Shown piece after piece: positions 48,079-55,408 of a stretch of 64,000 nt of DNA. Under the pieces are notes generated by a model. It saw only the letters and a list, made by a program, of their open reading frames with translations, had not been told where the DNA came from and did not search any database. How positions within the stretch are numbered: the stretch's first letter is position 1; each line of letters starts with the position of its first letter. A program made the position numbers and the translations under genes. The DNA comes from Streptomyces sulphureus DSM 40104 (GTDB taxonomy: Bacteria; Actinomycetota; Actinomycetes; Streptomycetales; Streptomycetaceae), in assembly GCF_000381025.1 (NCBI RefSeq), contig NZ_KB905813.1:354716-418715 (forward strand). Direction: 5' to 3'.

Positions 48079-51369
<3,291 letters not shown>

Positions 51370-51543
51370 CGGCGGCTGGGGGCGTGCGGTGGGCGTGAGG
51401 CGTCAACTGCGCGCCGCCTGCGGGCACTCGGAGCCGGAGCCGTGCGTTCACACTGGGGTACCCAGGAGCGGTACCGTTCGCTGTCGGCGTTCACACGGCG
51501 TTGCGGAGGCGGCGTCCGCACAACCGAGACGGAGTGGGTCCTG

Positions 51544-52401
51544 ATGCACTACTACGGGGCGCGGCACCCCTCTCCGTACGGCTCCCCGCTCCCGCCGCCG
51601 GCGGCCTTCCCCTCCGCCCCCTCGGCGAGCGGTCCGGTCCCTCCGGCCCGACCGGGCCCACCTCCGGCTCCCGCGCAGCCCCCGGCTCCCGCGCAGCCCC
51701 CGGCTCCCGCGCAGCCCCCGGCTGCCGTCCCGCACCAGGTCCCGCCCGCGACCCCGCTGGAGACGACGGGCCACATCGCCCTGCCCACGGGCGCCCCGGT
51801 GGAGATACCCGACCCGGCCGCCACCGCCCCGCTCGACGCCACCAGGGCGGCCGTCGCCGTGCTGCTCATCGGCCCGGCCGGCGCCGGAAAGACCTCCGTC
51901 GCCCGGCACTGGGCCGACCGCCGCGCCGTCCCCACCGCGCACATCAGCCTCGACGACGTCCGCGAATGGGTCCGCTCGGGCTTCGCCGACCCGCGCACCG
52001 GTTGGAACGACCACTCCGAGGCCCAGTACCGCCTCGCGCGGCGCACCTGCGGCTTCGCCGCCCGCAACTTCCTCGCCAACGGCATCTCCTGCGTCCTCGA
52101 CGACGCCGTCTTCCCCGACCGCCCCGTCGTCGGGCTCGGCGGCTGGAAGCGCCACGTCGGCCCCGGGCTCCTCCCGGTCGTCCTCCTCCCCGGGCTCGAC
52201 GTCGTCCTGGAGCGCAACGCCGGCCGCACCGGCAACCGCCGCCTCACCGAGGAGGAGGTCGCCCGCATCCACGGCCGCATGGCCGGCTGGTACGGCTCGG
52301 GTCTGCCGATCATCGACAACTCCCGCCAGGACGTCGCCAGTACGGCCCGGATGCTCGACGACGTCGTCGCCCGCAGCCTCGCCAGTCCGCCCGCCTGGTA
52401 G
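51544..52401 (+). CDS. P-loop ATP-binding protein with proline-rich N-terminus
   Basis: 285 aa. N-terminal 100 residues are Pro/Ala-rich with a repeat (PAPAQP three times). The rest is a P-loop kinase-like domain: Walker A GPAGAGKTSVARHWADR, HISLDDVREWVRSGFADP (similar to AAA/zeta-toxin or nucleotide-kinase folds), and VLDDAVFPDR. It resembles polynucleotide/small-molecule kinases, but the substrate is unknown. ATG 51544 has GGAG about 10 nt upstream. It lies between aroQ and the PepQ-like gene, a conserved position in streptomycetes. Confidence 0.82.
   Translation: MHYYGARHPSPYGSPLPPPAAFPSAPSASGPVPPARPGPPPAPAQPPAPAQPPAPAQPPAAVPHQVPPATPLETTGHIALPTGAPVEIPDPAATAPLDATRAAVAVLLIGPAGAGKTSVARHWADRRAVPTAHISLDDVREWVRSGFADPRTGWNDHSEAQYRLARRTCGFAARNFLANGISCVLDDAVFPDRPVVGLGGWKRHVGPGLLPVVLLPGLDVVLERNAGRTGNRRLTEEEVARIHGRMAGWYGSGLPIIDNSRQDVASTARMLDDVVARSLASPPAW
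51664..51723 (+). repeat. 18-bp in-frame tandem repeat encoding PAPAQP
   Basis: Three exact copies of CCGGCTCCCGCGCAGCCC at 51664-51681, 51682-51699 and 51700-51717 plus a partial unit to 51723. It encodes the PAPAQP repeat in the proline-rich N-terminus of the P-loop protein and can vary by slippage without frameshift. Confidence 0.9.
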
Positions 52402-52484
52402 CGCGGACGCGGCCCCGCCCGTCCGGTCGCCCGCACGGCCCCGCCCGAGCGGTGGTACCCGCGGCACGCCCCTACGCTCGGCGT

Positions 52485-53603
52485 ATGTCCGAGGTGCATG
52501 TCTCCCGCCGCGCGCGCTTGCGTGAGAGCTGCGCTGCCGAGGGCGGCCGGAACCCGGCGGACGCCGTGCTGGTCTCCCTGCCGTCCAACATCCGCTACCT
52601 CACCGGCCAGGCCGCCCCGGGCGCGGCCCTCCTCCTCGGCGCCGACGGCGAGGACACCCTCATCACGGCCCGCACCGAGGATTCGGAGCCCGGCCGCCCG
52701 CCGGTCGACGGTCTGCGCACCGCCGTCCTCGCGGCGAGCGAGGGCGATCCCGTCCTCGTCGCCGCGCAGTTCGCAGTGGAGTCGGGCGCCGGCTCGCTCG
52801 CCGTCGAGGAGCACCACCTCACCGTCGCGAGGCACCGCAGCCTCGGCCGCACTGCTCCCGGCGTCCGTCTCGCCGACCTCGGATGCGCGGTGGAGCAGCA
52901 GCGCGTCGTCAAGGACGACGAGGAGATCTCGGCGCTCCGGGTCGCCGCGGAGATCACCGATCAGGCGCTCGGCGAGCTGCTCGAGTCGATCCTCGTCGGC
53001 CGTACCGAGCGGCATCTCGCGCTGGAGCTGGAGCGCCGGCTCATCGACCACGGAGCCGAGGGCCCGGCGTTCCCCACCTCGGTCGCGACGGGCGCCAACG
53101 CGGGCCTCGCCACGCACCGTCCGACCGACCGCAGGGTCGAGGAGGGCGACTTCCTCTCCGTACGCCTCGGCGCCAACTACCACGGCTACCGCTGCCAGGT
53201 GGGCCGTACCTTCGTCATCGGAACGGCCCCCGACGACTGGCAGATCGAGCTCTACGACCTCGTCTTCGCCGCTCAGCGCGCCGCCCGCGAGGCGCTGCTG
53301 CCCGGCGCCAGTTGCCGCGAGGTCGACGGTGCGGCCCGTCGGGTCCTCGGGGATGCGGGGCACTCGGCGGCGCTCGGCCCGTCCACGGGCCACGGAGTGG
53401 GTCTGGAAATCGGTGAGGACCCTCGGCTCACTCCGGAGGCCATGAGTAGACTGGACGCTTGTGTGCCGGTCACTGTCGAGCCGGGGGTCCATCTCCCGGG
53501 CAGGGGCGGTGTCCGGATCGATGACACTCTCGTCGTTCGCCCGCAGGCGGACGGCGGACCCGAGCTACTCACCATCACGACCAAAGAGCTGCTCGCACTC
53601 TGA
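52485..53603 (+). CDS. M24-family PepQ-like protein with altered metal site
   Basis: 372 aa. M24 peptidase fold (creatinase N-domain, then pita-bread domain about 145-372). Family segments: VKDDEEISALRVAA, STGHGVGLEIGEDP, TVEPGVHLPGRGGVRIDDTLVV. The metal ligands are degenerate: DFG-A is RLGANY, the second Asp (normally HSD-TRT) is CQVGRTF, and the last Glu is Asp (RIDD). Only one His and one Glu remain, so catalysis as a dimetal aminopeptidase is doubtful. TACGCT (52473-52478) lies six bases before ATG 52485, so the mRNA may be leaderless. Precedes efp, as in many actinobacteria. Confidence 0.85.
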   Translation: MSEVHVSRRARLRESCAAEGGRNPADAVLVSLPSNIRYLTGQAAPGAALLLGADGEDTLITARTEDSEPGRPPVDGLRTAVLAASEGDPVLVAAQFAVESGAGSLAVEEHHLTVARHRSLGRTAPGVRLADLGCAVEQQRVVKDDEEISALRVAAEITDQALGELLESILVGRTERHLALELERRLIDHGAEGPAFPTSVATGANAGLATHRPTDRRVEEGDFLSVRLGANYHGYRCQVGRTFVIGTAPDDWQIELYDLVFAAQRAAREALLPGASCREVDGAARRVLGDAGHSAALGPSTGHGVGLEIGEDPRLTPEAMSRLDACVPVTVEPGVHLPGRGGVRIDDTLVVRPQADGGPELLTITTKELLAL

Positions 53604-53684
53604 GCCGGCGGGGCCACCGCGGGCTCGGAGGCGCCGGCGGCTCTTCGGTCTTCCGCAGCAGCAGTCTCAGGAGATTCCTCGACC

Positions 53685-54251
53685 GTGGCATCCACGAACG
53701 ACCTCAAGAACGGCATGGTGCTCAAGCTCGACGCCGACCAGCTCTGGTCCGTCGTCGAGTTCCAGCACGTCAAGCCCGGCAAGGGCCCGGCCTTCGTCCG
53801 CACCAAGCTCAAGAACGTGCTCTCCGGCAAGATCGTCGACAAGACCTTCAACGCCGGCACCAAGGTCGAGACGGCCACCGTGGACCGACGGAACATGCAG
53901 TACTCGTACAGGGACGGCGAGCACTTCGTCTTCATGGACATGGAGACGTACGACCAGATCCACGTCACCCCCGAGGTCGCGGGCGACGCCGCCAACTACC
54001 TTCTCGAAGGCTTCGAGGCGACGGTCGCGATGTACCAGGGCAACCCGCTCTCGGTGGAGCTCCCGGCCGCGGTCGAGCTCGTCATCGCGCACACCGAGCC
54101 CGGCGTGCAGGGCGACCGCTCCACCGGCGGCTCCAAGCCCGCGGAGCTGGAGACCGGCTACGAGGTCCAGGTCCCGCTCTTCATCACCACGGGCGAGAAG
54201 ATCAAGGTCGACACCCGCACCGGTGAGTACCTCGGCCGGGTGAACGGCTAA
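53685..54251 (+). CDS. efp: Elongation factor P
   Basis: 188 aa. EF-P relieves ribosome stalling at polyproline. KOW domain with the loop [10 protein letters not shown] (Lys33 at the tip) and two C-terminal OB domains including [19 protein letters not shown] and [16 protein letters not shown]. Actinobacterial EF-Ps with the PGKGP loop are thought not to need lysine modification; that is from the literature on relatives. GTG 53685 is preceded by AGGAGATT 9-12 nt upstream. Cotranscribed with nusB after 2 nt. Confidence 0.96.
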
Positions 54252-54253
54252 CC

Positions 54254-54679
54254 GTGGCAGCTCGCAACAGGGCCCGAAAGCGCGCCTTCCAGATCCTCTT
54301 CGAGGCGGACCACCGCGGCGCCGACGTCCAGACCGTCCTCGCCGACTGGCTGCGGCACGCGCGGAACGACCCGCGCCAGCCGCCGGTCACGGAGTTCGCG
54401 ATGGACCTCGTCGAGGGGTACGCGCGGCACGCCGCCCGGATCGACGAGCTCCTCTCTACGTACGCGGTGGATTGGACCCTCGACCGGATGCCGGACGTCG
54501 ACCGCAGCATCCTGCGGCTGGGCGCCTACGAGCTGCTCTGGGTCGACGGCACCCCGGACGCGGTCGCGATCGACGAGGCGGTCCAGCTCGCCAAGGAGTT
54601 CTCGACGGACGACTCCCCGAGCTTCGTCAACGGCCTGCTCGGCCGGCTCCTGGAGCTGAAGCCGAGCCTGCACCGCTGA
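54254..54679 (+). CDS. nusB: Transcription antitermination protein NusB
   Basis: 141 aa. Binds boxA RNA with NusE (S10) in rRNA antitermination. All-helical fold with RNRARKRAFQILFEADHRGA at the N-terminus, DRMPDVDRSILRLGAYELLW in the middle and AIDEAVQLAKEFSTDDSPSFVNGLLGRLL at the end. GTG 54254 comes 2 nt after the efp stop. Confidence 0.95.
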   Translation: MAARNRARKRAFQILFEADHRGADVQTVLADWLRHARNDPRQPPVTEFAMDLVEGYARHAARIDELLSTYAVDWTLDRMPDVDRSILRLGAYELLWVDGTPDAVAIDEAVQLAKEFSTDDSPSFVNGLLGRLLELKPSLHR

Positions 54680-54704
54680 GCCGCGAGGCGCCGGGCACCT
54701 CACG

Positions 54705-54742
54705 ACGCTGCCCGCCGGACCACGGGGTCCGGCGGGCAGCGT
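54705..54742. terminator. Bidirectional terminator nusB / bldD
   Basis: ACGCTGCCCGCCGGACC (54705-54721) pairs perfectly with GGTCCGGCGGGCAGCGT (54726-54742), loop ACGG. It lies 26 nt after nusB and about 100 nt beyond the bldD stop on the other strand. Confidence 0.88.
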
Positions 54743-54839
54743 TGTGTGCGGTACGACTTCTTCCGGGCGGTGCCTGCCGTCGCGGCCGTCACCGCCCGGC
54801 CCGCCGGCCGAGCCGACGGGCGGGGTGGGGCGGGAGCGC

Positions 54840-55343
54840 TCAGAGGTCCTCGGCGTGCGAGACGGCGCGGCGCGCGTCGGCGTCGAGCACGCCCCAGCTG
54901 ATCAGTTGCTCGGTGAGGACCGACGGCGACTGGTCGTAGATGACTGCGAGGGTGCGCAGGTCGTCCTGGCGGATGGAGAGGACCTTGCCGTTGTAGTCCC
55001 CGCGCTGGGACTGGATGGTGGCGGCGTACCGCTGGAGCGGTCCGGCCTTCTCGGCCGGCACGTGCGCCAGCCGCTCCAGGTCGAGGACGAGCTTCGGCGG
55101 CGGCTCGGCGGCGCCTCCCGGAGTGGTGCCGGGCAGGAGCTCCTGCACCGGGACCCCGTAGAAGTCGGCGAGCTCCGCGAGGCGCTGCACGGTGACCGCG
55201 CGGTCCCCGCGCTCGTACGAGCCGACGACGACCGCCTTCCAGCGGCCCTGCGACTTCTCCTCGACCCCGTGGAGGGAGAGGCCCTGCTGAGTGCGGATGG
55301 CTCGGAGCTTCGCACCGAGCTGCTTGGCGTATTCGCTGGACAT
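54840..55343 (-). CDS. bldD: Developmental repressor BldD
   Basis: 167 aa. N-terminal xenobiotic-response-type HTH (about 1-75: YAKQLGAKLRAIRTQQGLSL, ERGDRAVTVQRLAEL) and a C-terminal c-di-GMP-binding domain. The signature RGD-x8-RQDD is intact (Arg114-Gly-Asp116 and Arg125-Gln-Asp-Asp128), matching the residues of S. coelicolor BldD that bind a tetrameric c-di-GMP. With the dinucleotide it dimerises and represses sporulation genes, including itself. ATG 55343 is preceded by GGGGAG. The promoter region carries a perfect BldD box. It separates nusB from the pyr operon. Confidence 0.98.
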   Translation of the reverse strand: MSSEYAKQLGAKLRAIRTQQGLSLHGVEEKSQGRWKAVVVGSYERGDRAVTVQRLAELADFYGVPVQELLPGTTPGGAAEPPPKLVLDLERLAHVPAEKAGPLQRYAATIQSQRGDYNGKVLSIRQDDLRTLAVIYDQSPSVLTEQLISWGVLDADARRAVSHAEDL

Positions 55344-55379
55344 AAGGCTCCCCGGACGAAGTCTTCGTAACTCATTGTG

Positions 55380-55408
55380 AGGTTACGCAGCGTAATGTGC
55401 CGCGTCAA
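55380..55408 (-). promoter_or_regulatory. bldD promoter with perfect BldD operator
   Basis: On the minus strand -35 TTGACG (55403-55408) and -10 TAACCT (55380-55385) are spaced by 17 nt. Across the spacer and into the -10 lies ATTACGCTGCGTAAC (55382-55396), matching the BldD consensus nTnACnCWGnGTnAn at every fixed position. This explains autorepression, known in S. coelicolor. Confidence 0.9.

Follow-up and report, generated by a model that had tools for sequence, protein, structure and literature searches.

A probable, clade-wide pseudo-prolidase encoded beside efp in Streptomyces, with a P-loop protein as candidate partner

The gene at 52485..53603 on the forward strand of the window (the whole stretch of DNA analysed, 64,000 nucleotides long) encodes a degenerate M24B protein, a pseudo-prolidase of 372 residues, with the stop codon completing an open reading frame whose bounds are exact. 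Judged by its sequence, this protein is very probably a pseudoenzyme in which Xaa-Pro cleavage has been lost. Comparison with its orthologues shows the gene to be the in-place descendant of an actinobacterial EF-P-linked prolidase, the metal site having been dismantled on one branch within the Streptomyces family. A gene for a P-loop (AAA_33) protein was gained on that same branch. The best explanation of the locus as a whole, to which we give a probability of about 0.5, is that the pseudo-prolidase has been turned into a binding partner, most likely of the P-loop protein.

Membership of the M24 superfamily is clear. A profile search gave two domains, Peptidase_M24 (PF00557; 177.7 bits against a cut-off of 23) and Creatinase_N (47.8 bits), and the closest solved structures by sequence were archaeal prolidases and E. 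coli YpdF (HMMER). An AlphaFold2 model built from 44 sequences had a pLDDT of 74.3, falling below 50 at residues 299-325, 353-362 and 366-372. The predicted structure is a pita-bread fold that matches prolidases from end to end, the best match being B. anthracis 3q6d (Z 33.2, rmsd 4.8 Å, 341 aligned residues). The best NCBIfam PepQ equivalog score was 169.2 bits against a cut-off of 630, which says little by itself. An antisense open reading frame at 51552-53492 was considered as a gene; the frame is open, yet nothing found speaks for it, and long open antisense frames are usual in high-GC DNA. Six further M24 genes lie in the same genome, one of which (L002) appears intact by a pattern script that read part of them.

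The first-pass annotation of this DNA had claimed that most M24 metal ligands were lost, and this was borne out by a HMMER alignment to solved prolidases. The ligand set D-D-H-E-E is replaced in the window protein by R227-Q238-H303-E332-D346, and the segments quoted in that annotation are present, SVRLGANYHGYRCQVGRTF at residues 225-243 and VRIDD at 343-347. The first ligand Asp is gone at codon 227 (R; 53163..53165, + strand, as for all codons given here) and the second at codon 238 (53196..53198), which is Q here and E in most relatives. The ligand His at codon 303 (53391..53393) and the ligand Glu at codon 332 (53478..53480) are retained, and the last ligand Glu has become Asp at codon 346 (53520..53522). 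The claim was in fact an understatement, three further losses having been overlooked, all at His columns: codon 210 is T (53112..53114), codon 299 is P (53379..53381) and codon 310 is G (53412..53414), whereas His occupies these columns in 70, 68 and 70 of 70 intact rows, respectively. Column 210 aligns in the HMMER alignments with the His of the prolidase PHG motif, which we take to be the catalytic His. Columns 299 and 310 lie 4 and 7 residues from H303, the same spacing as His350 and His361 from His354 in E. coli aminopeptidase P, for which alanine mutants are named in structure titles; from the roles of His350 and His361 there, these two columns are presumably active-site histidines too. 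In total, six of the eight catalytic positions are changed, and the protein lacks both the D-D-H-E-E set and the three active-site histidines of M24B Xaa-Pro peptidases. Since it matches the M24 peptidase profile, automatic annotation is likely to call this gene a Xaa-Pro peptidase throughout Streptomyces, a label that is probably wrong.

The first-pass annotation had also held that the change is not a recent mutation, pointing to similar changes in other efp-linked streptomycete proteins, and had proposed aligning efp-adjacent orthologues across actinobacteria. This alignment gave a sharp division. None of the 149 orthologues read from the window's clade has D-D-H-E-E, pointing to one old loss, while among efp-linked orthologues from other families it is present in all 65 with five readable columns. 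A recent mutation or a strain oddity was thus rejected. The 149 rows comprise the best-scoring 80 of 450 relatives, 48 other Streptomyces loci (the window included; these two sets may have species in common) and 21 sister-genus loci from 13 genera, part of the sequences from a search of 394 family genomes. They leave out a second copy of the window (L001), two paralogues (L152 and L153), four broken copies (L234-L237), which have no D-D-H-E-E in their readable part, and G095, G103 and G134, where the matches start late. The 65 rows are part of the other-family orthologues listed and include seven that belong to two further families within the order, as well as L191, which is without its N-terminus; L151, which ends before the last three columns and has both Asp, was left out. 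By its own standard, the first-pass reading of a conserved non-peptidase would have been refuted by an intact orthologue within the genus, and none occurs in 128 Streptomyces-group loci (two filed under Streptantibioticus; the window included). Within the Streptomyces family, an intact site was found in the early-branching genera g108 and g111 (7 loci), five of these loci being included in the 117-row tree described below and in the 70 intact rows used for statistics on conservation and loss.

The degenerate rows retain between one and four of the eight catalytic residues. In the Streptomyces type (n = 136), any of C, R, G, S, N and A may stand at column 227, while column 238 is E in 109 rows, Q in 25 and R in 2, H303 is present in 134 and E332 in 131, and column 346 is D. 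The remaining degenerate rows (n = 13) were picked by E346, and one of them is a Streptomyces row (L127). The 12 others, from five sister genera, are variable at columns 227 and 238 and retain E346, with Gly replacing E332 in 12/12. In the sister genera g109, g110 and g116, H303 has become Ala, Tyr or Gly. Thus, the lineages differ in the ligands they have lost and no ligand column is common to all members of the clade, which argues against a chemistry that needs the site in all of them. Cys at column 227 in 80/136 Streptomyces-type rows stands beside C237 (135/136), the window protein having R227 (codons 53163-53165 and 53193-53195, respectively); a disulfide, or a new metal or cofactor site, is possible for this pair.

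These patterns bear on whether the protein might still be an enzyme. Acid 238, H303, acid 332 and acid 346 occur together in 109/136 Streptomyces-type rows, and with four possible ligands surviving, one metal could still bind there; we take E238, H303, E332 and D346 to be the ligands of the tighter metal site, with Asp and Glu swapped. Such a site could serve a hydrolase that uses a single metal and acts on a new substrate. We consider it improbable, as the window protein itself has Q238 and so falls outside the 109, the His columns 210, 299 and 310 are gone in nearly all rows, and the gene has been kept in five sister genera despite the change of E332 to Gly, so that a metal at this site must be dispensable in those genera. 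A metal-free hydrolase resembling creatinase was also considered, and creatinase folds are indeed near (Z 30.2-31.0). However, column 210, which by its spacing may correspond to the creatinase base, is His in only 3/136 Streptomyces-type and 0/13 other rows, and we regard this reading as most improbable.

In a tree of 117 rows, the degenerate rows grouped as a single clade with an SH-aLRT of 100, and the stem leading to that clade measured 0.49 changes per column. Its sister is the set of intact rows from the same family (support 88), followed by the intact rows of the same order. Since shared odd residues in the cleft might by themselves have drawn the degenerate rows together, a second tree was made with the cleft columns omitted (residues 196-215, 223-244, 295-315 and 326-351). 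The same single origin was recovered, with bootstrap 100 and SH-aLRT 99, and the clade was therefore rejected as an artefact of those columns. Replacement of the enzyme by a distant paralogue was also rejected: the degenerate rows nest within the efp-linked orthologues and the order of the locus is retained. The Streptomyces M24 paralogues L152 and L153 have D-D-H-E-E and are remote on the tree.

The degenerate gene is under purifying selection. Median dN/dS was 0.14 in 30 close Streptomyces-type pairs, and in the same pairs efp gave 0.125 and nusB 0.087. Intact orthologues had a median of 0.166 (11 pairs), and the other degenerate type gave 0.28 in 5 pairs, with efp at 0.25 in the same pairs. 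With ligands lost and selection purifying, the gene resembles that of an M24 pseudoenzyme such as Ebp1. Constraint extends across the genus and the 13 sister genera read, in keeping with the first-pass suggestion of a conserved non-peptidase, and we regard non-peptidase status as well supported. A pseudogene is disfavoured, dN/dS being similar to that of efp. A gene that is dying, and kept merely by its position between operon genes, might be expected to leave broken copies, and four are present among the family genomes (G582, G384, G432 and G439). These are in assemblies of 2-4 contigs. In two of them, L234 (G582) and L237 (G439), from assemblies of 2-3 contigs, the frame breaks close to codon 249, next to a run of C, and in a third copy efp is broken too, which suggests sequencing error, though this falls short of proof. 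In three genomes (G112, G401 and G503) the gene is apparently absent; efp is absent from them too, so the locus is probably missing from those assemblies. Given these points and a dN/dS of ∼0.14, a dying gene is very improbable.

Of the 70 columns conserved at ≥95% in intact rows, 18 have been lost by one degenerate type or by both, and these 18 include 7/8 of the catalytic columns (Fisher p = 1.8e-4). Comparing 10 intact with 25 degenerate rows, sets of unlike depth, the mean pairwise difference in the outer helices (145-192) was 0.134 in degenerate rows versus 0.199 in the nearest intact ones, while in the loop at 295-315 it was 0.415 versus 0.110. In intact rows, conservation of the cleft strands greatly exceeds that of the core (0.67 versus 1.61 bits), and in the Streptomyces type the two are only about equal (0.39 versus 0.40 bits), which indicates that the old constraint is gone. 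At the same time, new residues have become fixed in the Streptomyces-type cleft: R236 in 126 of 136 rows, C237 in 135, and G240 and H336 in 134 each; E/Q238 and D346 also belong to this new cleft. The pseudo-prolidase thus seems to have been re-used rather than abandoned.

Downstream, the gene is followed after 82 bases by efp (53685..54251, +), then by nusB (54254..54679, +; TIGR01951, 138.4 bits against a cut-off of 88.35) and, on the opposite strand, by bldD (54840..55343, −; NF050110, 308.4 bits against a cut-off of 250). A scan of 51300-55400 found no promoters or terminators, which says little in Streptomyces. All 149 degenerate rows have efp within 300 bases after the gene. So do 64/65 of the other-family orthologues, the exception being L140 at 604 bases. 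In four genomes of two sister-family genera (L204-L207; G007, G015, G017 and G021), where efp and nusB are present, the ∼1.5 kb beside efp yielded no M24 relative. The order M24-efp is ancestral and the EF-P linkage is inherited, and because intact orthologues are efp-linked as well, adjacency is uninformative about a new role. The first-pass interpretation therefore holds as regards an old, conserved non-peptidase. Its suggestion of a partnership with EF-P gains nothing from gene order, its sole argument, that order being older than the loss. In EF-P itself, columns 73, 74, 86, 110 and 173 differ between the groups with degenerate and intact sites, and these five clade-typical residues may be ordinary stem changes. 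Within the EF-P loop, PGKGP and PGKGG are the commonest forms in both groups, with no obvious matching change.

The main rival to a P-loop partner is nonetheless a role at the ribosome or with EF-P. By analogy with Ebp1, the pseudo-prolidase might work close to either of them as a binder of nascent chains or of peptides rich in proline, the cleft serving as a peptide site without chemistry. The unbroken proximity of efp in degenerate rows, the new residues fixed in the Streptomyces-type cleft and the Ebp1 precedent (passages of PMC11266112) would all suit such a role. However, proximity holds for the intact enzyme too, and against proline-peptide binding, also put forward in the first-pass annotation, stand the loss of conserved active-site and N-domain residues (S45, Y73, H210, H299 and H310) and a cleft that is no more conserved than the core and variable in sister lineages. 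We consider this role unlikely, while ranking it above the readings that retain catalysis.

The upstream neighbour, overlooked in the first-pass annotation, lies at 51544..52401 on the forward strand and encodes a P-loop (AAA_33) protein that carries a proline-rich tail at its N-terminus. The start ATG at 51544 was chosen by the purine-rich stretch that precedes it and by relatives beginning MQHAVG. Of 129 Streptomyces-group loci, among which the window appears twice, 127 have the gene, and the remaining two end 113 and 304 bases upstream. It is also present in 9/9 genomes of five further degenerate genera and in 9/9 Streptomyces of a class-wide sample. In seven problem genomes of the degenerate clade, it is full in four, cut off in G112 and missing in G401 and G503. 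At E < 1e-20 it was found in 0/10 intact genomes of the order searched and in 0/119 genomes of other families, where the best match was 5.6e-10. Within the genomes searched, it is thus restricted to the degenerate clade, where it occurs at every assembled locus. In genus g120 the gene lies 3-14 kb upstream and is not adjacent. Across 154 loci there is almost no variation in the P-loop GPAGAGKT or in several other stretches, and dN/dS is 0.034 (29 pairs).

The branch that gained this gene is also the one that lost the metal site. Since gain and loss form a single joint event, a link between them lies beyond statistics. No co-loss of the P-loop and pseudo-prolidase genes was found in the degenerate clade; G401 and G503, which are without the P-loop gene, are also without efp, so the locus is missing there. 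We infer that the P-loop protein is a better candidate partner than EF-P, because a partnership with it explains both the timing of the change and the retention of both genes. That the pseudo-prolidase acts specifically as a binding subunit of the adjacent upstream protein we put forward tentatively, at somewhat less than even odds.

Under this proposed partnership, the pita-bread fold would hold the P-loop protein through the nearly invariant outer helices (145-192), the rebuilt cleft, or both, perhaps by way of the proline-rich tail, and would thereby control the NTP-driven activity of the P-loop protein. PPP occurs in 122/143 stop-bounded tails, which may extend beyond the true start, and is lacking from the tails of g109, g110, the g113 row and one of the four g120 rows. 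Smooth translation of PPP requires EF-P. The tail so often containing PPP, and the three genes adjoining, EF-P could be tied in as well. In a bolder version, which we regard as improbable, the three genes would form a proline-linked control unit that arose on a single branch of the Streptomyces family and lies next to bldD, a gene for a developmental regulator: synthesis of the PPP-rich tail would report EF-P activity, and the pseudo-prolidase would capture the tail and so gate the P-loop protein.

The locus offers a conversion of enzyme to pseudoenzyme in bacteria that has a single origin. It can be compared with intact relatives in the same genomic position, and a candidate partner was gained on the same branch. 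Moreover, genera with and without an intact site make the association of efp with a proline peptidase testable. A search by title and start of abstract in the open-access literature and a few subscription journals found no paper on the pseudo-prolidase, and one may still have been published. Searches with SCO1491 and the presumed locus numbers SCO1492 and SCO1493 gave matches for SCO1491 only, which is EF-P. The bldD-nusB-efp neighbourhood is named in PMC13118837, in passages that do not mention the pseudo-prolidase.

Several known systems resemble this protein in part. With the PepQ/YpdF-type M24B enzymes (E. coli YpdF 5cnx, P. furiosus prolidase 1pv9 and B. anthracis 3q6d) it has the full-length, two-domain pita-bread fold in common at ∼26-30% identity; unlike them, it has lost three of the ligands, the two Asp and the final Glu, along with the three active-site His. 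Creatinase has the fold in common too (7yto, 1kp0 and 1chm), and also lacks most metal ligands. However, the His of column 210, which may correspond to the creatinase base, is not retained in the pseudo-prolidase, and there is no sign of a shared substrate. The N-terminal domain of Spt16 (FACT) is a non-enzymatic histone chaperone domain of eukaryotes; it has the same fold (5ce6, Z 27.4) in an unrelated gene context. As to the locus, passages of PMC7327921 describe a Xaa-Pro aminopeptidase gene co-localised with efp in Firmicutes; that enzyme is presumed active, whereas the site is gone in Streptomyces. The main text of a review (PMC11266112) makes no mention of Streptomyces, prolidase or Spt16. 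It does describe Ebp1/PA2G4, a eukaryotic M24 pseudoenzyme that sits at the ribosomal tunnel exit, has two of the five ligands left and keeps the M24 fold for non-catalytic work. Ebp1 belongs to the MetAP branch and has lost other residues, whereas the protein described here is bacterial and prolidase-like, carries a Creatinase_N domain and is encoded at an efp locus. M24 pseudoenzymes are thus already known from eukaryotes, and the Streptomyces protein is a real, clade-wide bacterial pseudo-prolidase.
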